In this document: positions 10,115-52,001 of the stretch, piece by piece
Numbering within the stretch: the first letter of the stretch is position 1
Layout: each line of letters opens with the position of its first letter
NCBI RefSeq assembly: GCF_007993755.1
Contig: NZ_CP042467.1
Span: 124,001-188,000 of the forward strand
Direction of reading: 5' to 3'
Length of the DNA stretch: 64,000 nucleotides
Source of the DNA: Microvenator marinus
GTDB taxonomy: Bacteria > Myxococcota_A > Bradymonadia > Bradymonadales > Bradymonadaceae
Notes under the pieces: model-generated
Seen by the model: the letters and a program-made list of their open reading frames with translations, nothing else
Database searches by the model: none
Told to the model about the DNA's origin: nothing
Position numbers and translations under genes: made by a program

Positions 10115-11676
10115 GAGTAATCGTATTGATATCGCTGCTTTTGACCATCATGGGTTGCCATGACCATGCGCACGATGACCATGCGCACGATGACCATGCC
10201 GAAGAGGCTGGCCACGGTCATGGCCACGATGAAGAAGGTATGTCCCATCAGGTCACCCGTTGGGGGGCCAAAACTCAGCTCTTTGTCGAGTTTCCGGTGC
10301 TTGTGAAGGGAGAAGAGAGTGCCTTTGCAGTCCATTTGACGGGCCTTGATGACCATCAACCTGTCGCGCAAGGAAAGGTCACTGTCATCTTGACCGCCGG
10401 GGACGCCACTCCCGAGCAGTTTGTTGTGGAAAAGGCTTCAGTTCCGGGGATTTTCCGCCCGCTCGTGACACCCAAAGCAGCTGGAAAGCGCCAAGTTGTG
10501 GTGCGCCTAGAGACTGAAGAAGGGCCTCAGGCCTTTGACCTCGGATACTTTCAAGTTTGGGAGTCAGAGGCTTTGGCGAAGAAGAACTTCCATGAACACC
10601 CACCAGAAGGAATCTCCTTTACGCTCGAAAACCAGTGGAAGATGGATTTCTCAACGAGTGCCGTGACCAACCGTGAGCTTCGCCCGTCCCTCGAAGCTTT
10701 TGCGCGGCTCACCCTTCCTTCTGACGCCGAGGCCCTCATTACGGCGCCTCGGAGCGGGCGGGTTGGAGCTCCGGGCGATTATCCGATGGTGGGTAAGTCG
10801 GTCGAGTTGGGAGAACAGCTCTTTGTCTTGAGCGTTGGGCCACAAGAGGACGCGGACTTTGCTGGGCTCGAATTTGCTCTGGAAGCCGCCCGAATTCGTG
10901 TCTCGTCCGCAGATAGGGAAGTCAAGCGTCTGGGCCCCCTCGTTGAGCAGGGAATCGTACCTCAGAAGCGACTTGATGATGCGATGAGTACGCTCGCTGA
11001 AGCCCGAGCCGCATTGCAGTCTGCACAGCGTCGGCAAGGCAATATTGGCGGCTCCCAACGTGTATCAGGGGGGCGCGACGGTCTTCGTATCCCGTCGCCG
11101 CTCAGTGGCCAGGTGGCCGAACTCTTTGTGGCTAGCGGTGAATGGGTTCAGGCCGGTCAACCCATCGCGCGCGTGGTGAACTCAAGGAGGCTGTGGCTGG
11201 ATGCCGCGATACCGCAGGCGTATTTAAGCAAGGTCCGAAACATCCAAGGGGTTTGGTTTGAACTACCTGGATACACCGATGTTTTTGAACTGGATGCCTC
11301 CACGTTGATGTCTGTGGCGGCCGAGGTAGACATCAAAAGTCGAACGTTGCCGGCCAGATTTCGAGTCGATAATCCTGATGGTCGACTCTTTGCCGGTATG
11401 ACCACCAATTCGAGAGTCGTTGTGGATAAGCCCCTGAAAACGCTAGCGGTGCCTCGCTCAGCTCTGGTCTTCGACGCCGGTATGGACGTGGTCTTTGTCC
11501 AGATAGCAGGGGAAGTGTTTGAGAGGCGCCCGGTCGTCAGAGGCATCGAAGACGGCGATTGGATAGCGATCACCCGCGGTCTGGAAGAGGGCGAACGTGT
11601 GGTAGCGGTTGGGGCCCACACGGTCAAGTTGGCAAGCATTTCCTCCGATGAAATCGGTCACGGCCACGCGCACTGA
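10111..11676 (+). CDS. RND efflux periplasmic adaptor lipoprotein (CzcB/CusB type) with His-rich N-terminus
   Basis: About 521 residues. A lipoprotein signal ends TIMGC and is followed at once by a repeated HDHAHDDHAHDDH segment and GHGHGHDEE, a likely metal-binding tail. The core has the adaptor order: an N-terminal beta region, a lipoyl-like half (GRVGAPGDYP), a helical hairpin (about residues 250-310), the second lipoyl half (IPSPLSGQVAELFVASGEWVQ is typical), then beta-barrel and membrane-proximal domains. It ends with another HGHAH. The ATG overlaps the TolC-type stop. It should link the RND pump to the outer membrane channel, and the His clusters point to divalent metal as substrate or signal. 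Confidence 0.88.
   Translation: MRVIVLISLLLTIMGCHDHAHDDHAHDDHAEEAGHGHGHDEEGMSHQVTRWGAKTQLFVEFPVLVKGEESAFAVHLTGLDDHQPVAQGKVTVILTAGDATPEQFVVEKASVPGIFRPLVTPKAAGKRQVVVRLETEEGPQAFDLGYFQVWESEALAKKNFHEHPPEGISFTLENQWKMDFSTSAVTNRELRPSLEAFARLTLPSDAEALITAPRSGRVGAPGDYPMVGKSVELGEQLFVLSVGPQEDADFAGLEFALEAARIRVSSADREVKRLGPLVEQGIVPQKRLDDAMSTLAEARAALQSAQRRQGNIGGSQRVSGGRDGLRIPSPLSGQVAELFVASGEWVQAGQPIARVVNSRRLWLDAAIPQAYLSKVRNIQGVWFELPGYTDVFELDASTLMSVAAEVDIKSRTLPARFRVDNPDGRLFAGMTTNSRVVVDKPLKTLAVPRSALVFDAGMDVVFVQIAGEVFERRPVVRGIEDGDWIAITRGLEEGERVVAVGAHTVKLASISSDEIGHGHAH
10154..10200 (+). repeat. 15-bp tandem repeat encoding a His/Asp tract
   Basis: About three copies of the unit GATGACCATGCGCAC run in frame just after the lipobox of the adaptor gene, encoding the repeated HDDHA motif. 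The first copy begins CATGACC and the last ends in GCCGAA. Because the unit is a multiple of three, gain or loss of copies would change the length of the metal-binding tail without breaking the frame. Confidence 0.7.
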
Positions 11677-44659: not shown

Positions 44660-44974
44660 TTGGAATTCTTAATTCACGGTGTGAAGTATGCCTTCCCTGC
44701 TAAGCCAGGGGCTATGGTCCGTGGCATAGCTGCAGGCTGGCAAGCACCGGGACTTTCCGAGTTTATGATGGATGAGCCAGAGCCGTACGTTTGGCCCAAT
44801 GCGTTGGGTTCATTGCGCGGTCATGTCATTGCGCCACTTCACAAGTCGCTGCCAGTTGTGGCGTCCAATGACCCAGAACTTCATGCTCAGTTCGCACTAA
44901 TCGACTTGATTCGGGTTGGGTCCGCTCGAGAGCGTAAAGTAGCGGCCGAGGAACTGCAAAAGCAGCTTGGATAA
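44660..44974 (+). pseudogene. C-terminal part of a winged-helix-type regulator, 5' end missing
   Basis: 104 residues starting at a TTG inside NLLEFLIHGVKYAFPAKPG, then PEPYVWPNALGSLRGHVIAPL and GSARERKVAAEELQKQL. This is the C-terminal half of a family of about 200-residue proteins with an N-terminal winged helix, as far as I recall. That N-terminal half is absent. The in-frame sequence upstream (Ser-rich, antisense to the YD gene) is not family-like. No Shine-Dalgarno precedes the TTG. Confidence 0.45.
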
Positions 44975-45053
44975 AAAGCTGACCAAGCAACTGACTTGGG
45001 TGGGGCTTTCATGTACCCTTTGCCATAGTTCAAAGAAGCGCAAGGGAGACCAA

Positions 45054-45824
45054 ATGGGTGAGCAAAAGGATCAACAAGTCGGTTGTGTATCGCGTATCGT
45101 TGTAGCGCTCATGGTTCTTGGACCGTCAGTGTTGCTCTTCTTTTCAATTTTGGTAGTTCTCAACCAAGATTCGGGAAATGCGGAAACGTGGCATTTGGTT
45201 TGCGCATCCTTCATTTCGCTCTTCGCGGGTTTCGGCATCTACAAGTGGGTGGTCAACAGCAGATTCCTTTCGCGCATGATGGTTGCGCTCGCGGCACTCA
45301 TGGGGTGTTGCACTGGTGGTGCTGTCTATTTGGAGTCCACTTGGCCAGAGCATTGCGCCGAGGCAATCTATCCAACCCAATTTGAACACGCGCTGCGAAA
45401 TCTCCGGACCAAGGGAGTGAGCGATGACAACGCTTATGAAATCGCAGCGGACGCCGTAGTGGAGATTTGCGTCGATGGAGAATGGAACGAAAATCCGGCC
45501 CAGTACTTCCACGAGGCATTGAGCAAGGATATAATCGACCACTGGCGTCGAAAGGGAGTCTGTCGGCGAAGTCAGGAAAGGTTGGAGCATATCCGTCAGA
45601 ATTGGCGAGACCCTTTGTCTCCGGAGGACATCATGCTGGTAAGGAGTGTGTTATGTCGCTTGGAGCCCGACGAGCAATGGATTCTTCAGAAAGTGGTGGA
45701 GGGAAGGACCGCCCAAGAGATTGCCGATGAGTTAGGAATCAGTCTATCCGCGGCAAAACAACGAACGAAACGCGCCAAGGACGCGTGTCGGGTGATGTAT
45801 AAGATGTTGGAAAAGGGGGGCTAA
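45054..45824 (+). CDS. Sigma-70-like protein with N-terminal membrane helices
   Basis: 256 residues. Three hydrophobic segments lie at about 15-36, 46-66 and 72-92. The cytosolic-type part then looks like an ECF sigma factor: a region-2-like stretch FEHALRNLRTKGVSDDNAYE to ALSKDIIDHWRRKGVC, and a region-4 helix-turn-helix RLEPDEQWILQKVVEGRTAQ, EIADELGISLSAAKQRTKRA. ATG 45054 follows AAGGGAG. With three helices and positive residues between TM2 and TM3, the positive-inside rule would put the sigma part outside, a puzzle. A chimeric gene made by deletion is an alternative. It ends 103 bp before the viperin-kinase gene. Confidence 0.65.
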   Translation: MGEQKDQQVGCVSRIVVALMVLGPSVLLFFSILVVLNQDSGNAETWHLVCASFISLFAGFGIYKWVVNSRFLSRMMVALAALMGCCTGGAVYLESTWPEHCAEAIYPTQFEHALRNLRTKGVSDDNAYEIAADAVVEICVDGEWNENPAQYFHEALSKDIIDHWRRKGVCRRSQERLEHIRQNWRDPLSPEDIMLVRSVLCRLEPDEQWILQKVVEGRTAQEIADELGISLSAAKQRTKRAKDACRVMYKMLEKGG

Positions 45825-45878: not shown

Positions 45879-45927
45879 GAGGACCTCTTGAAAACGGAAG
45901 ATTTCCTTCCGCTAAAGAGGAGTCCTC
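45879..45927 (+). promoter_or_regulatory. Leader hairpin containing the viperin gene Shine-Dalgarno
   Basis: An outer stem pairs GAGGACCTCTT (45879-45889) with AAGAG (45915-45919) and GTCCTC (45922-45927), 11 base pairs with a GA bulge. Inside it, CGGAAG (45895-45900) pairs with CTTCCG (45906-45911) around an ATTTC loop. The Shine-Dalgarno AGAGGAG lies in the 3' arm and the stem ends directly at the ATG at 45928. Closed, the structure would hide the ribosome-binding site, so a switch in translation (temperature, protein or RNA ligand) is likely. No T-run follows, so it is not a terminator. Confidence 0.65.
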
Positions 45928-47343
45928 ATGGCAACCACATTACCCCCATCCGCAAACTATCACCTCACGCAGGCGTGCAACTTCGCCTGCCACTTTTGCT
46001 TCGCGACGTTCAAAGACGTTTCTGGAACGCTAAAGCGCGATGACCAGATTCGCATCATCGATGCGCTCGCAGAACACGGGGTCCAAAAGCTGACTTTCGC
46101 TGGTGGCGAACCCTTCGTTGTGAAGTGGATCGATGAGCTCATCGCACACGCCAAGAGTCTTGGACTTACCACAATGGTGGTTACCAACGGGTCCTTGCTG
46201 ACCGAAGAGAGGCTGAGGAAGCTCGCGCCCGTGTTGGATTGGCTCGTGATTTCGTTTGACAGTCAGTATCCAGAAACCAACCGAGCGATCGGTCGAGCGA
46301 CGCGCAAGGACAATAAGGCGAGCGCAACCGAGCACTATCTGGAAATTGCGCGCGTCGCCAAGGACGCGGGAATTCGGCTGAAGATCAACACGGTGGTGAC
46401 CAGCAAGAACTCTTCGGAAGACTTTTCGGACTTTCTGCGAATCTCCCGACCAGAACGTTGGAAAGTTTTGGAAGTTCGTGCCGTTGAGGGGCAAAACGAT
46501 GGTCGCGTAGAAGAGCTCTTAATCGACCCCAAAACGTTCCAAGAGTTTGTTGACCGTCATCAACCGATCTTCGAAGAACTCGACATCGCAGTTACTCCTG
46601 AATTCGACGACGATATGCGCGGAAGCTATGTGATGGTGGACCCGAAAGGTCGCTTCTTCGATAGCAGTGCTGGGCGCCATACTTACAGTGAGCCGATTCT
46701 CGATATCGGAGTGGCTGCGGCATTCCCACAGGTCAACTTCGACCACGAGAAGTACCTTTCGCGTGGCGCATCCTATCAATGGGAGCGCGGTGAGTTGCCC
46801 AGTCTGGTAGCCATTGCCGGGCATCCAGGCGCGGGAAAAGATACGCTGGGAGATATGCTCGTGGAGCAACACGGCTACGTCCGCGTGGCGATTGCTGACC
46901 CAATCAAGGATGTTGTTGGCGAACTCTTCGATTTCAACATCGACCAGCTTTACGGGGATGCGCGCAACGATTTGGATCCTCGCCTCAACAAGACCCCGCG
47001 GGAAGTCTTCCGGAAGTTCGGCGAAGTGTGTCGAGAACTCGATCCCCAGATTTGGATTCGTCAGTGGCTGAAAGTGATTGACCATCACTTGTCTGCAGGT
47101 AGGCGAGTGGTTTGCACCGATATTCGGATGTTTGCGGAGTTGGAGGCCGTCCAAAGTCGCGGGGCTCACACGGTCCTTTTGAGTCGCACTCAGTCGCTAA
47201 TCAATGCGCCAAAGGTCGAGGTTGACGAATGCGAGATTCTGCGCCGCCCAGGTCTGTTTGACGTGCGAATCGAAAACGACGGTACGCTCGATGAGCTCTT
47301 CCGAGCGTTCTACGCCACCGCGCAAATGGGAGGTGCCAAATGA
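45928..47343 (+). CDS. Prokaryotic viperin fused to a dNMP-kinase-like domain
   Basis: 471 residues. Residues 1-290 are a viperin-type radical SAM enzyme: NYHLT then CNFACHFC (Cys17, 21, 24 for the 4Fe-4S cluster), KLTFAGGEPF, VVTNGSLL, WLVISFDSQ, NRAIGRATR, KINTVVTS, WKVLEVRAVEGQN, SYVMVDPKGRFF and YLSRGASYQW, all at viperin positions. Such enzymes convert nucleoside triphosphates to 3'-deoxy-3',4'-didehydro analogues that terminate phage RNA synthesis. From residue 292 a second domain has Walker A GHPGAGKDT (298-306), VRVAIADPIK and DPRLNKTPREV, as in phage-type deoxynucleoside monophosphate kinases. A kinase normally sits next to pVip; here it is in the same chain. The stop overlaps the DUF4258 ATG. 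Confidence 0.9.
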   Translation: MATTLPPSANYHLTQACNFACHFCFATFKDVSGTLKRDDQIRIIDALAEHGVQKLTFAGGEPFVVKWIDELIAHAKSLGLTTMVVTNGSLLTEERLRKLAPVLDWLVISFDSQYPETNRAIGRATRKDNKASATEHYLEIARVAKDAGIRLKINTVVTSKNSSEDFSDFLRISRPERWKVLEVRAVEGQNDGRVEELLIDPKTFQEFVDRHQPIFEELDIAVTPEFDDDMRGSYVMVDPKGRFFDSSAGRHTYSEPILDIGVAAAFPQVNFDHEKYLSRGASYQWERGELPSLVAIAGHPGAGKDTLGDMLVEQHGYVRVAIADPIKDVVGELFDFNIDQLYGDARNDLDPRLNKTPREVFRKFGEVCRELDPQIWIRQWLKVIDHHLSAGRRVVCTDIRMFAELEAVQSRGAHTVLLSRTQSLINAPKVEVDECEILRRPGLFDVRIENDGTLDELFRAFYATAQMGGAK

Positions 47344-47612
47344 ATCACATCATCTACACAGACCATGCACTGTTGAGAATGGCTCAACGAGGCGTCTCCT
47401 ATGCCCAAGTGGAGCGAGTGCTCCAGTACGGAAGAAAGATCTATCATCGTGGCGCCCTGATCTTTCTGGTTGGAAAACGTGAGATCCGTCGGTTGGCCGG
47501 CTTCGTAAACGACATTCACGAGCTCGAAGGGCTGCACGTTGTTGTGAACAGTGAGTGCGTTGTGATCACGACTTACCGCAATCGCGCGACGGTTTTTCGG
47601 GTGCGAAGTTAG
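47340..47612 (+). CDS. DUF4258 protein coupled to the viperin gene
   Basis: 90 residues: IIYTDHALLRMAQRGVSYAQ, VERVLQYGRKIYHRGALIF, VVVNSECVVITTYRN. This is the DUF4258 pattern, a small alpha-beta fold with a conserved HA..RM.QRG motif related to RelE-like toxin folds. The ATG overlaps the viperin-kinase stop (ATGA), so it is translated with it. Possible roles are toxin, regulator or accessory RNase; none is proven. Confidence 0.82.
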   Translation: MNHIIYTDHALLRMAQRGVSYAQVERVLQYGRKIYHRGALIFLVGKREIRRLAGFVNDIHELEGLHVVVNSECVVITTYRNRATVFRVRS

Positions 47613-47689: not shown

Positions 47690-48658
47690 TCAGATATCAC
47701 CGTATCGAGCAGCCAGTTCATTCGCCCACACTTCGAGGTTTGGTGGGACGGATTCCTTGAGGTGAATCAGGAGGCCATCAAGGTCAATAAGCGAGACCGT
47801 CTCTGGCTTCTTGAGTAGCGCCCTGAATCCTTTTAGGAACGCTCCATCGCCCAGCAACGCGATGTTCTTGGAAGATGAACAGATGGCGAAGCGCACATCA
47901 TCGGCATCACGGCGTGAAGCCTCCTCATGAGCGAGAGCGAGGTTCACCCAGAGTTGCCAACGTGGGCCGCCAAAAGGGCAGCCCAGTTCTTCGAAGGCGC
48001 TCTCGGCCAAGATGTTGTGTTCGTCTGTCCGCTGCCAATATCTGTATCCCTTGGTTCTCGAGTACAGGCATGACGTGCGATCCTCCCGCACTGGCACGTC
48101 ATTGGGGCACACAGCTTGGTCCTTGGCAGCACGCCCGGACTTCCTGAATCCGCACGTACTGAACTCGGGTTCGACAAATTTCGTTTCAATGACCTGTACG
48201 AACGAGCCAGTGTGGGTGCGACCTTCAATGAGCAAATCGCAATCCACGCCACCGCGCCCTGTTTGGTCGTTGAAAACATCGCGGTCAGGTGTGTACTCGA
48301 TATGGATTGCTGTCACTTCACTTAGACCTTCGATGAATGGCTTGAGCACCTCAGTCGCCAGATCTAGCCAAGTTGCGAGGGGGGCGAAAAGGTTGAAACA
48401 CATGGCTTGGCTAGAGAGCATATTCTCAAAAGTGCGTGGCGCCACACCTTTTCCAGATTGCTGGCGCTCTTGAGCGGCCACGAAGGCCTCTTTGATGATG
48501 AAGTTGCTGCCCTTGTTGGCAGCCGCTTCTGAAAGGATGTGGCCATACTTGCCATGACCCTCGCTGAGCGAAATACTGCGATACTCCCGTTGCCGGGCCT
48601 CTGCTCTCGCGCGGTACGACTTTCCCTTGGTGTAAACCGGGCCTACGTCAACCGTCAT
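47690..48658 (-). CDS. PD-(D/E)XK nuclease of the PGN_0703 type
   Basis: 322 residues. The catalytic core reads GGVDCDLLIEG then VQVIETKFVEPEF, the D and ExK of a PD-(D/E)XK nuclease. The region SLSEGHGKYGHILSEAAANK and LSSQAMCFNLFAPLA resembles putative restriction endonucleases named after PGN_0703. No methylase is adjacent. It runs toward the viperin cluster from the opposite side and probably belongs to the same defence island. It is cytoplasmic, and target specificity is unknown. Start ATG 48658. Confidence 0.75.
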   Translation of the reverse strand: MTVDVGPVYTKGKSYRARAEARQREYRSISLSEGHGKYGHILSEAAANKGSNFIIKEAFVAAQERQQSGKGVAPRTFENMLSSQAMCFNLFAPLATWLDLATEVLKPFIEGLSEVTAIHIEYTPDRDVFNDQTGRGGVDCDLLIEGRTHTGSFVQVIETKFVEPEFSTCGFRKSGRAAKDQAVCPNDVPVREDRTSCLYSRTKGYRYWQRTDEHNILAESAFEELGCPFGGPRWQLWVNLALAHEEASRRDADDVRFAICSSSKNIALLGDGAFLKGFRALLKKPETVSLIDLDGLLIHLKESVPPNLEVWANELAARYGDI

Positions 48659-48879: not shown

Positions 48880-49446
48880 TTAGGAATTTGGTGTGAGCGT
48901 CCCAAACTCATCCTCGGTTCCAAACTCCCATTCATTTGGGACAGGAATCCCCAACTGAACCAGAATCCGCTCCTGCACCGGAGCCGGCAAGGGATTGTGG
49001 CGAAGCAACTTGATGGCAGGAAGCTTGCCAGCACGCATCAGATTGGCGACTGCAGCGGAGTAATAGCGTGGCACATAACCAATGGGCGTCCCGTCAGCAG
49101 CGTAGAGCATGACCGCGTATTCGTCGAAGGCGTTATGGATGTCGGACCTGGCACTGAGTGGCCGAGGCGGAGGCTCATGCTCCCAGCGTTGTTGGACATC
49201 AACGGGTCGAAATCGAAGGCCACGTGTGAATAAAACAAAGGTCGCAGTTCCGTCCTTGATTTGTGGTGGTGCAAAGACCTCAAAATGATCCGTGAGACGC
49301 CGACCGTTGCTGCGCTCAAGTACGTCAAAGGCGTGCACCGAGTGTGCGAGTTCACCTGGAACAAAGCCCATGCGCAACAAATGCTCGGCATAATCGCCGC
49401 GTTTTCTGGAGATCACGCGATTGTGGAGGAAAGGAAAGAGGTCCAC
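48880..49446 (-). CDS. HIRAN-domain protein, probably 5'-truncated
   Basis: 188 residues. The C-terminal half has DEYAVMLYAADGTPIGYVPR and YSAAVANLMRAGKL, a HIRAN domain that binds DNA 3' ends in helicases and nucleases. The N-terminal part LFPFLHNRVISRKRGDYAEH and VLERSNGRRLTDHFEVFAPP resembles proteins that carry about 60 more residues before this point. Here the frame upstream is closed by a TAG after seven codons, and the start (GTG 49446) lies within the end of the helicase gene with no Shine-Dalgarno. The 5' end was probably lost together with the 3' end of the helicase gene. The 221 bp between this gene and the nuclease gene (48659-48879) hold nothing I recognise. Confidence 0.6.
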   Translation of the reverse strand: MDLFPFLHNRVISRKRGDYAEHLLRMGFVPGELAHSVHAFDVLERSNGRRLTDHFEVFAPPQIKDGTATFVLFTRGLRFRPVDVQQRWEHEPPPRPLSARSDIHNAFDEYAVMLYAADGTPIGYVPRYYSAAVANLMRAGKLPAIKLLRHNPLPAPVQERILVQLGIPVPNEWEFGTEDEFGTLTPNS

Positions 49447-52001
49447 GGAATGGTAGGGCCGAAACGCCTAAGCTCTTCAGGTTGGAAATTCAGAGTCTTG
49501 CGGCTCTGGTCCAAAATGCGGCCTGCACGGTCGATCTCTTTCTGCAGTTTCGCGGTACTCCGCTGCGACTCGAGTTCTCGCCGCGTTGTCTCACGCGCCT
49601 CGGAATCCGCGGAGATACGCTGGATCATGTCCAGGGTGCCGCGCCCAATGCCATCCTTGAGGGATTCGTCGATGCGCTCCATGACAACGTTAGAGAGCGA
49701 ACCCAGCTCTTTCTGGATGGTTTCGATCTTCTCCACCACAACTTCCAGAACTCGGTCTTCGGGGCGCTGAGGCAGCGAGAAATACATGCATCGAACCTCG
49801 GGCGAGGGCTGGAGGGTTCGGTCAATTCGGCCATTGCGCTGTTCGAGTTTGGCTGGGTTCCATGGGAGGTCGTAGTGGACCAAATCTGCACACGCTCCTT
49901 GTAGGTTCACGCCTTCACGAGCGGCATCTGTGGCCACCATGATGCGTACAGGATGCTCCACAGAGTTGAATGCGCTCTGAACTTCTTCGCGCGCTTCATC
50001 GGACATCTGACCATGAAACTGGAGGATCAGGTCTTTATCGTGACCCAATGCGTTTCTAAGGTGCTCCAAGATAAAGCGCTTCGTGTCCGCGTATTCCGTG
50101 AAGATAAGGAGTTTTCGCTGGTTCCACACACCATCGGTCTTGAGCTCGGCCTGAATCCATTGAATCAGCGCCTGAATCTTGGCGTCGGGCGCCATTCTTC
50201 GGTGCAAAGCTAGGTCCATCAGCTCGCGTCGAATCTCCTCGAGTCGCTCTGACGTGCTCAACTCATCGCTGTATTCGGCGACCTTCTTGGCATCTTCGAG
50301 CTCATCAGCCTCATCGGACTGGCCATAGACTTCTGGATTGAGTTTGCCCGCACTCGCTGAAGACTCAGATTCGTCCACGTGCCTTTTCAGGTGCGCTTGG
50401 AGGGTTCGGTAGAAGGCCTCTGGGCTTGAAAGCAGGCGCTTTTGGAGATTGAGGAAGACGAATTTGGCCCGCTGAGTGGTGGGGTTCATGAGCTCAGTGT
50501 ATTCGGCCAAAAGCTCTGCCATCCGTAATTCATCGGCATGTTTGAGTTTGAGGCCAGGGCGCGCATTTGTTTGGGTCTCCTCAATCTCCTTAAAGGCCCA
50601 GTCGGTGCTACTGAATGTGAGTTCCCAGCGGATAACACGCCGCTTCGGGAATGAGATCCCCGCATCACGCAAATCGCTCTTCAGGCGCCGAACCATCACG
50701 GGTTTTAGTTGTTTTTCGGAGTCGATGGGCACGCCGCGAGTGAAGCGTTGTCCGTCCAGAATCTCCAAGAGTGCAGCAAAGGAGTTCGAGTGGCCGTTGT
50801 GCGGCGTGGCGCTCAAGAAGAGGCGGTTTTCAAAGCGCGGGGCTACATCGCGGATCACATGGGTGAAACGTGAGTCTACCGCGTACTTAGAGGCGGTAGC
50901 TGGTGCGGCGGCGTGGGCTTCGTCGAGTATTAAGATGCTCTTGCGGACACGATTGCCGAGGAAGTGGAGCAGGGGGTCGCGGTGCTCTGGGCGACTCAAC
51001 ATGGAGTGGGAGATAATGAAGCGTGTGTGGGTGCTCCACGGGTTGACTCGGAAGCCACGTTCTTTTCTCCTACGGCCGATGAAGTCACGGTCGTAGATTT
51101 CAAAGTGAAGGCCAAAACGCTTCTTCATCTCGTCACGCCACTGCAGCACAACAGAGGCAGGGCAGCAGATGAGTGAAAAATCAACGCGCTGTCTGAGTCG
51201 TAGCTCTTGGAGAACGAGGCCCGCTTCAATGGTCTTCCCGAGGCCCACATCATCGGCGATGAAGAGGTTGGCTCGCGGCAGTGAGAGGGCCTTCAAGAGC
51301 GGCGTGAGCTGGTGATTTAGCAGTCTGATTCCTGCCCGAAACGGGGACTGAAAGAGCTGGGCGTTTGTTGCGGTGACGCAGCTCCACTTCAAGGCGTTGA
51401 GATAGCCTGCAAACATTTCGGGCGAGTCGAGACCGGTGACGTTGCCAAGCCCGTGTGCGCTCGGCTGGATGAGTTGGGCTCCGAGTTCTAGTTCCCAAAT
51501 CACCGAAAGTGGGCGGCCTGGCGCGTCATCGTCTAGACACACCATATGGACCAGGGTCATCTCTTTCGAGTCGAGTTCCCCAGCTTCGACGCGATCCACG
51601 AGATACTGCCGCTGGCGGCATCTGACGATCGCGCCTGGCGTTGGCAGATTGCGAGCCGCTAAGGAAACGTCGCTAGGTTCTTGGTCAAGTGACGAGAACT
51701 CGTCGAGCGAAGAGGTGAGCTGCCGTGCAAGGGCCATGCGGGCTCTTGGCGATGTGTCCAAACCGTGAAGCTCGCAAGCCTTTCTCAACTCATCGCGAGT
51801 AAAATGGCGGACCGCTGCGTCAAAACGGAAGTTTCTAGCGTTGGCGATTCGCTCAATCTGTTGGTCTTTGTTGAGCGAAGTCGGCACTTGTACACCGACA
51901 AGATGTGCCAGTTCGAGTAGGCGCTCGCGGGTGAGAGCAGAAAGTGTGGTCGTGATGTCTTGCATGCGCTCGTTTGTAAGGCGTTGAGCCCGGTTTGTCA
52001 C
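49413..52001 (-). CDS. SNF2-type helicase resembling DrmD of DISARM, C-terminus shortened
   Basis: 862 residues. After an N-terminal SAP-like helical part, SNF2 motifs follow: FIADDVGLGKTIEAGL (I), ILDEAHAA (II), LFLSATPHNG (III), LIFTEYADT (IV), VATDAAREGVNLQ (V) and EQRNGRIDR (VI). The PGAIVRCRQRQYLVDRV opening of the core and overall order match DrmD of class 1 DISARM, which is about 1000 residues. After TLNFQPEELRR the sequence changes to a short tail (FGPTIPWTSFLSSTIA) and stops, so about 150 C-terminal residues appear missing. No DrmA, DrmB, DrmC or methylase gene is here. Start GTG 52001 or ATG 51965. Confidence 0.75.
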   Translation of the reverse strand: MTNRAQRLTNERMQDITTTLSALTRERLLELAHLVGVQVPTSLNKDQQIERIANARNFRFDAAVRHFTRDELRKACELHGLDTSPRARMALARQLTSSLDEFSSLDQEPSDVSLAARNLPTPGAIVRCRQRQYLVDRVEAGELDSKEMTLVHMVCLDDDAPGRPLSVIWELELGAQLIQPSAHGLGNVTGLDSPEMFAGYLNALKWSCVTATNAQLFQSPFRAGIRLLNHQLTPLLKALSLPRANLFIADDVGLGKTIEAGLVLQELRLRQRVDFSLICCPASVVLQWRDEMKKRFGLHFEIYDRDFIGRRRKERGFRVNPWSTHTRFIISHSMLSRPEHRDPLLHFLGNRVRKSILILDEAHAAAPATASKYAVDSRFTHVIRDVAPRFENRLFLSATPHNGHSNSFAALLEILDGQRFTRGVPIDSEKQLKPVMVRRLKSDLRDAGISFPKRRVIRWELTFSSTDWAFKEIEETQTNARPGLKLKHADELRMAELLAEYTELMNPTTQRAKFVFLNLQKRLLSSPEAFYRTLQAHLKRHVDESESSASAGKLNPEVYGQSDEADELEDAKKVAEYSDELSTSERLEEIRRELMDLALHRRMAPDAKIQALIQWIQAELKTDGVWNQRKLLIFTEYADTKRFILEHLRNALGHDKDLILQFHGQMSDEAREEVQSAFNSVEHPVRIMVATDAAREGVNLQGACADLVHYDLPWNPAKLEQRNGRIDRTLQPSPEVRCMYFSLPQRPEDRVLEVVVEKIETIQKELGSLSNVVMERIDESLKDGIGRGTLDMIQRISADSEARETTRRELESQRSTAKLQKEIDRAGRILDQSRKTLNFQPEELRRFGPTIPWTSFLSSTIA

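Follow-up and report, generated by a model that had tools for sequence, protein, structure and literature searches.

Viperin is an antiviral enzyme that makes chain-stopping decoys out of the building blocks of RNA, and its vertebrate partner CMPK2 belongs to a kinase family other than DNMK, the family considered here. According to a review, viperin activity relies on synergy with CMPK2 and a similar kinase adjoins 15% of bacterial viperin genes (PMC11249213), in agreement with the first-pass annotation of our sequence, which had remarked that kinases often lie beside genes of prokaryotic viperins (pVips). Vertebrate viperin (RSAD2) and CMPK2 have the same division of labour, dehydratase and NMP kinase (PMC11249213), as is proposed below for Microvenator marinus (Bradymonadales, Myxococcota), but they are encoded by separate genes whereas the M. 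marinus parts form one chain. In bacteria, the pVip-kinase model of PADLOC (PDLC02905) likewise describes a viperin and a nucleotide kinase in one chain, and PADLOC also has a model for a viperin-associated kinase, VakA. Among the loci collected here, a C-terminal cytidylate-kinase-like domain is present in the pVips L054, L057, L058 and L060, and a C-terminal thymidylate-kinase-like domain is fused to pVips of other Myxococcota (L043, L046, L047 and L117), which match the PADLOC candidate PDC-M51B. Since a fusion model and other kinase-fused pVips exist, a viperin-kinase fusion as such is already known.

The window, that is, the whole stretch of 64,000 nucleotides analysed here, contains a gene in which a viperin is joined to another type of kinase. 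Its features are as follows (positions are those of the window).

45928..47343, + strand: fused viperin and dNMP-kinase-like gene, a stop-free frame, with the same fusion in L039, L040 and L041

45949..46788, + strand: viperin (radical SAM nucleotide dehydratase) domain, residues 8-287, assigned by NF038283, PADLOC pVip and comparison of the model with 6q2p_A

45976..45999, + strand: CxxxCxxC 4Fe-4S/SAM motif, residues 17-24, with C17, C21 and C24 kept in 90 of 91 pVips

46798..47322, + strand: T4-gp1-type (d)NMP kinase domain, residues 291-465, assigned by PHROG 139, Pfam DNMK, the model and 1dek_A

46819..46845, + strand: kinase P-loop GHPGAGKDT, residues 298-306, with G303, K304 and D305 in all 12 viperin-linked kinases

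47119..47139, + strand: base/phosphate-binding DIRMFAE, residues 398-404, with D398, R400 and E404 in all 12 linked kinases

The gene starts with ATG at 45928, stops with TGA at 47341-47343 and encodes 471 aa with no internal stops, and its viperin and kinase matches are far beyond chance. The source genome is a single 5.85-Mb contig, in which other matches are weak and to radical-SAM proteins only. Only a few residues separate W285 of the viperin from the kinase, whose first strand starts near residue 293, and third-position GC is similar in both halves (0.63 and 0.62). A structure prediction had been proposed by the first-pass annotation; the full-length AlphaFold2 model has a mean pLDDT of 91 and a pTM of 0.77, and both predicted folds match solved structures. 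The one-chain arrangement is kept in three other genera; the viperin-DNMK fusion of M. marinus is real and conserved.

In the PDLC02905 model the kinase is N-terminal and cytidylate-kinase-like, whereas that of M. marinus is C-terminal and of the DNMK family. True members match positions 1-473 of this profile, and the Bacteroidota protein L081 is such an end-to-end match (1-473 of 474) with its cytidylate-kinase-like domain first, while the M. marinus fusion matches 182-462 of 474 by its viperin part only (1.8e-86) and is not a member. Neither its kinase half nor the tandem DNMK genes described below matched any PADLOC model. PADLOC-DB 2.0.0 does not include the family, so DNMK-linked loci would be called plain pVip. 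The viperin-thymidylate-kinase fusions (L043, L046, L047) have the same order, with the viperin N-terminal and the kinase C-terminal, but their kinase is of another family and their viperins lie on distant branches. Judged from databases and the open literature, what is new in the M. marinus fusion is the DNMK kinase family, the C-terminal kinase and its lineage. The surprise is moderate: a pairing was to be expected, but the role of the kinase is made directly testable by its family, its place after the viperin and the existence of fused and split pairs.

For the N-terminal half, NCBIfam NF038283 matches residues 8-280 (E=8.4e-88) with 294 bits, well above its curated cut-off of 180 bits, and the PADLOC pVip profile matches at 3e-86. 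In the alignment of 91 pVips, the sole row without the CxxxCxxC cysteines is a sequence incomplete at that position. When the numbering of mouse viperin is transferred through the alignment, counterparts of R194, K220, N222, R245, K247 and Y302 are all present, at positions nearly invariant among the 91 pVips; we take K220, N222, R245, K247 and Y302 to be the catalytic set. The predicted viperin half superimposes on mouse viperin-CTP (6q2p_A) with a TM-score of 0.90-0.91 (0.91 by target length) at 2.1 A. CxxxCxxC, GGEPF, KINTVV, RWK and SY were all recovered; of the landmarks listed by the first-pass annotation, RWKVLEVRAVEGQN is not a usual motif when the 90 other pVips are compared. Beside RWK, the M. 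marinus protein has E at residue 182 and R at residue 184, where nearly all 90 others have Q, R or K and L. With described pVips (SAND; NF038283) it has in common the full domain above cut-off, all catalytic residues and the predicted fold; it differs by the C-terminal kinase and by the unusual residues 182 and 184. By profile, residues and predicted fold, this half is a complete prokaryotic viperin.

For the C-terminal half, PHROG 139 (dNMP kinase) matches residues 291-465 at E=2.1e-31, and Pfam DNMK (PF21448) gives 43.4 bits against a curated cut-off of 27.1 bits. The P-loop GHPGAGKDT had been placed from residue 292; the motif exists but sits at 298-306, and it is the domain, not the P-loop, that starts near 291. 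Its T306 is kept in 11 of the 12 viperin-linked kinases. Residues D398, R400 and E404 of DIRMFAE correspond to Asp175, Arg177 and Glu181 of the T4 dNMP kinase, for which Table 2 of PMC10653934 gives base/phosphate binding. We compared the T4 pocket residues according to the published list (PMC10653934), and Gly13, Lys14, Asp15, Lys37, Arg132, Trp152, Asp175, Arg177, Glu181, Arg197, Asn223 and Leu230 are identical in all 12 linked kinases. The M. marinus kinase departs from T4 by R11->G, M135->F, Q136->R, Q178->M and T208->V and does not keep His206/Thr208 of the pocket-locking motif; replacement of Arg11 by Gly is common to all viperin-linked kinases, and the pocket differences unique to M. 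marinus among the 12 are at residues 361, 362, 401 and 430. The M. marinus kinase is also the fastest-changing copy, departing at 11 of the 49 positions where the remaining 11 sequences agree, compared with 0-3 for each of the others. A shift of base specificity through these pocket changes was considered and is not supported: the deviations fall on 4 of 20 pocket positions and on 7 of the 29 fixed positions outside the pocket (Fisher p=1), and because they are not concentrated in the pocket we claim no change of specificity.

The kinase half is modelled with a pLDDT of 88. Its top match is the T4 dNMP kinase both by Foldseek and by Z, with a Z of 15.2 and an rmsd of 2.8 A over 173 residues against 1dek_A. 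Compared with T4 gp1 (1DEK) and the P. putida dNMPK, it shares the predicted fold and most substrate/ATP residues, but it is shorter, has Gly instead of Arg11 and belongs to a separate viperin-tied clade. By profile, Walker A and substrate residues and predicted fold, this half is a T4-type (d)NMP kinase. The NF038283, PHROG 139 and Pfam DNMK matches thus uphold the original proposal of a viperin and a phage-type dNMP kinase in one chain. Loss of either active site was looked for, and the active-site residues are present in both viperin and kinase.

A pVip occurs in 5 of the 21 genomes of the family, and four of these five, M. marinus included, carry the viperin-DNMK fusion; a DNMK kinase is found in 4 of the 21, always fused to viperin. 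The fused relatives come from Lujinxingia vulgaris (L039 = L051), a Lujinxingiaceae MAG (L040 = L052) and a sediment MAG (L041 = L053, which lacks the 5' end at a contig edge), at 46-47% identity. G008, of the same family, has an unfused pVip (L042), which the viperin tree puts inside the fused group (SH-aLRT 88 and 94), and no DNMK was found near this pVip or anywhere in the G008 genome. Because L042 nests within the fused viperins, one fusion and one loss is the simplest reading, and the presence of an unfused viperin without a nearby DNMK shows that a viperin can do without the kinase. Just downstream of this pVip, L042 7355-8266 encodes another piece of a viperin C-terminus, with odd repeats; this fits a local rearrangement that may have removed the kinase part.

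Elsewhere the two parts are encoded by consecutive genes, first the pVip and then a DNMK kinase; this is the case in eight Myxococcaceae loci (Pyxidicoccus, Corallococcus, Myxococcus and a MAG) and in one Gemmatimonadota MAG. In these tandem pairs the stop mostly overlaps the start; in the inspected Myxococcaceae loci the kinase start and viperin stop codons share the sequence ATGA, so that a small change could join the two frames. In a kinase tree of 12 linked, 7 phage and 2 unlinked Myxococcota kinases, the 12 linked ones form one clade (99/99), of single origin, apart from the phage and unlinked host enzymes. As judged from these sequences, the viperin-DNMK partnership is older than the fusion, and overlapping genes were joined in the Lujinxingia-type family. 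Compared with the fusion by itself, the tandem pairs and the single kinase clade argue much more strongly that the two parts work together.

Two other accounts of the kinase were considered. DNMK-like kinases occur in 7 of 379 genomes of the phylum, and within the family only in the four with the fusion, which excludes a general housekeeping gene of the phylum. Recent direct capture from a phage is not supported by the best phage matches, only 28-32% identical among the matches listed, or by the separate clade of the linked kinases, though the lineage may have an older phage origin. Fused relatives were not found in viral contigs by direct scan or by alignment scan; the latter detected nine pVip-like loci, all without a DNMK-type kinase. 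In none of the 14 plasmid records with a pVip was the kinase part covered.

We consider it quite probable that the fusion protein defends against phages and is inducible, its prokaryotic viperin carrying a nucleotide kinase in the same chain. Some features speak against this reading: the fast change of the M. marinus kinase, the unusual residues beside RWK, the altered pocket residues and the kinase-less viperin of G008. The N-terminal half would use SAM and the 4Fe-4S cluster to remove the 3'-OH from an NTP, and the resulting 3'-deoxy-3',4'-didehydro (ddh) NTP would halt phage RNA polymerase. The C-terminal half would turn a (d)NMP into its diphosphate, and the host's NDP kinase would add the third phosphate. 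The kinase might secure the viperin's NTP supply when nucleotides shift towards monophosphates during infection, or it might re-phosphorylate spent ddh-NMP; it probably supplies or recycles the viperin's nucleotide building blocks. As cited in PMC10653934, the T4 kinase acts on dGMP, dTMP and hm-dCMP and the T5 kinase on all four dNMPs. The kinase sequence does not fix the base, because enzymes of the T4/T5 family differ in selectivity. The first-pass annotation took the kinase type as a hint of a substrate other than CTP; the type alone does not show this.

A possible but doubtful alternative, in line with that hint, is that the kinase mainly sets the type of ddh-nucleotide, DNMK-linked viperins working on a nucleotide that T4-type kinases favour (G or U/T) and the cytidylate-kinase-like and thymidylate-kinase-like partners marking other specificities. 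In fusions or as neighbouring genes, the kinases found with viperins come from at least three families (DNMK, cytidylate-kinase-like or Cytidylate_kin2/VakA, and thymidylate-kinase-like), pVips are known to produce ddhCTP, ddhUTP and ddhGTP (as quoted in PMC10732462), and the base-contacting Asp175, Arg177 and Glu181 of T4 are retained in all linked kinases. However, base specificity varies inside the T4/T5 family itself, as described in PMC10653934, and the viperin residues beside RWK are not sorted by kinase type: LRVL is found in tandem DNMK viperins and in kinase-less pVips too, FQVL in the three fused relatives and LEVR in M. marinus. A search for such sorting among the pocket-side residues of viperin found no clear pattern.

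It is improbable that the kinase, instead of supplying substrate, senses phage nucleotide metabolism or serves as a decoy for it, binding for example phage-type dNMPs and so switching the viperin on. Such a role would suit a family that is also phage-encoded (447 phage records match) and domains joined almost without a linker, but the catalytic and substrate residues of the kinase are conserved, and catalysis appears to be the shared requirement, because other pVips have kinases from unrelated subfamilies in this position. We give very little weight to the idea that the viperin half acts on a dNTP, yielding a didehydro-dideoxy nucleotide that would end phage DNA rather than RNA synthesis, with the kinase supplying the dNMP-derived substrate; it is raised because the partner is a deoxynucleotide-type kinase, and the viperin products known to us are ribonucleotides. 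An assembly error, or a single chance fusion without function, is next to impossible: four fused cases only were found and the 5' end of L041 sits at a contig edge, but the fusion recurs in four genera from independent assemblies at 46-47% identity with both active sites retained, the M. marinus genome is a single contig with like third-position GC in both halves, and the recurrence together with the overlapping genes of the split version excludes the frame error at residue 290 that the first-pass annotation had named as a refutation.

The fusion shows that viperins have recruited kinases repeatedly, from the DNMK, cytidylate-kinase-like and thymidylate-kinase-like families and on either side of the viperin domain, which supports the kinase as a functional part of viperin immunity, like CMPK2 in vertebrates. 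The one-chain viperin-DNMK offers a direct biochemical test of whether the kinase supplies substrate or recycles ddh-NMP, and lets kinase type be tested as a predictor of the chain terminator.

Upstream of the fusion lies a candidate regulator.

44967..45824, + strand: gene with a hydrophobic N-terminal part (about 3 TM) and a sigma-70 region-4-like C-terminal part (Pfam Sigma70_r4_2, 3.9e-9)

The start of this gene, a TTG, is uncertain. Homologues are found directly upstream of a pVip on the same strand in 13 other Myxococcota loci, and divergently oriented in L042; the genes lie about 100-190 bp ahead of the viperin-domain start (for example L062 3582-4883, L056 3596-4876, L046 7235-8602 and L047 569-1879; the L042 gene is at 10147-11157). 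They occur alike with DNMK, with a thymidylate-kinase-like domain or with no kinase partner, and nine aligned proteins have four invariant cysteines in common. In a survey of the phylum, the strongest matches are mostly beside pVips and related proteins occur elsewhere too. The gene is a probable dedicated regulator of the viperin fusion, and the pattern suggests, as a lead and not as a result, a dedicated membrane-bound viperin switch in Myxococcota. Homologues outside pVip loci include L140 (G293), L141 (G019) and L144 (G176), whose neighbours, judged by eye, are B12/radical-SAM-like, dioxygenase-like and PglZ-like proteins, so this type of regulator may not be confined to viperin. Just before the start codon of the fusion, at 45879-45927, there is an inverted repeat (GAGGACCTCTT ... 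AAAGAGGAGTCCTC) whose inner stem is CGGAAG/CTTCCG and whose fold z-score is -2.0, a possible leader or operator; no Rfam family was found within 40-53 kb of the window.

Downstream of the fusion are the following genes.

47340..47612, + strand: DUF4258 gene, 90 aa (Pfam DUF4258, 1.4e-8), overlapping the fusion stop by 4 bp

47690-48658, - strand: PDDEXK_13/REase-ARP type nuclease (Pfam)

49413-52001, - strand: DrmD-like helicase (PADLOC)

The DUF4258 gene is a possible operon partner of the fusion. In L. vulgaris, a DUF4258 gene (L039, 8676-9134) lies on the upstream side of the fused gene and overlaps it, and DUF4258-like small genes also lie beside the pVips of L023/L065 (L023 2310-2879) and L098 (4665-4961). 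In L040, a gene with a weak similarity to NYN/Zc3h12a RNases (E 0.003, below the cut-off) overlaps the kinase end in place of DUF4258. Genes of the HicA and RelE toxins have been reported beside pVips (PMC10865869). Since the nuclease and the DrmD-like helicase follow on the other strand, the site looks like a defence region; no other DISARM genes were noticed. A nuclease of the same type is near the fused viperin of a second genome (L040 214-852), and in G184 a PglZ-domain gene (BREX-type) lies downstream of the fused viperin (L041 2806-5643). Another unusual viperin partner was seen in Bacteroidota, where a viperin carries a C-terminal TauD/TfdA-type dioxygenase domain (L094 4914-6422; Pfam 9.9e-21).
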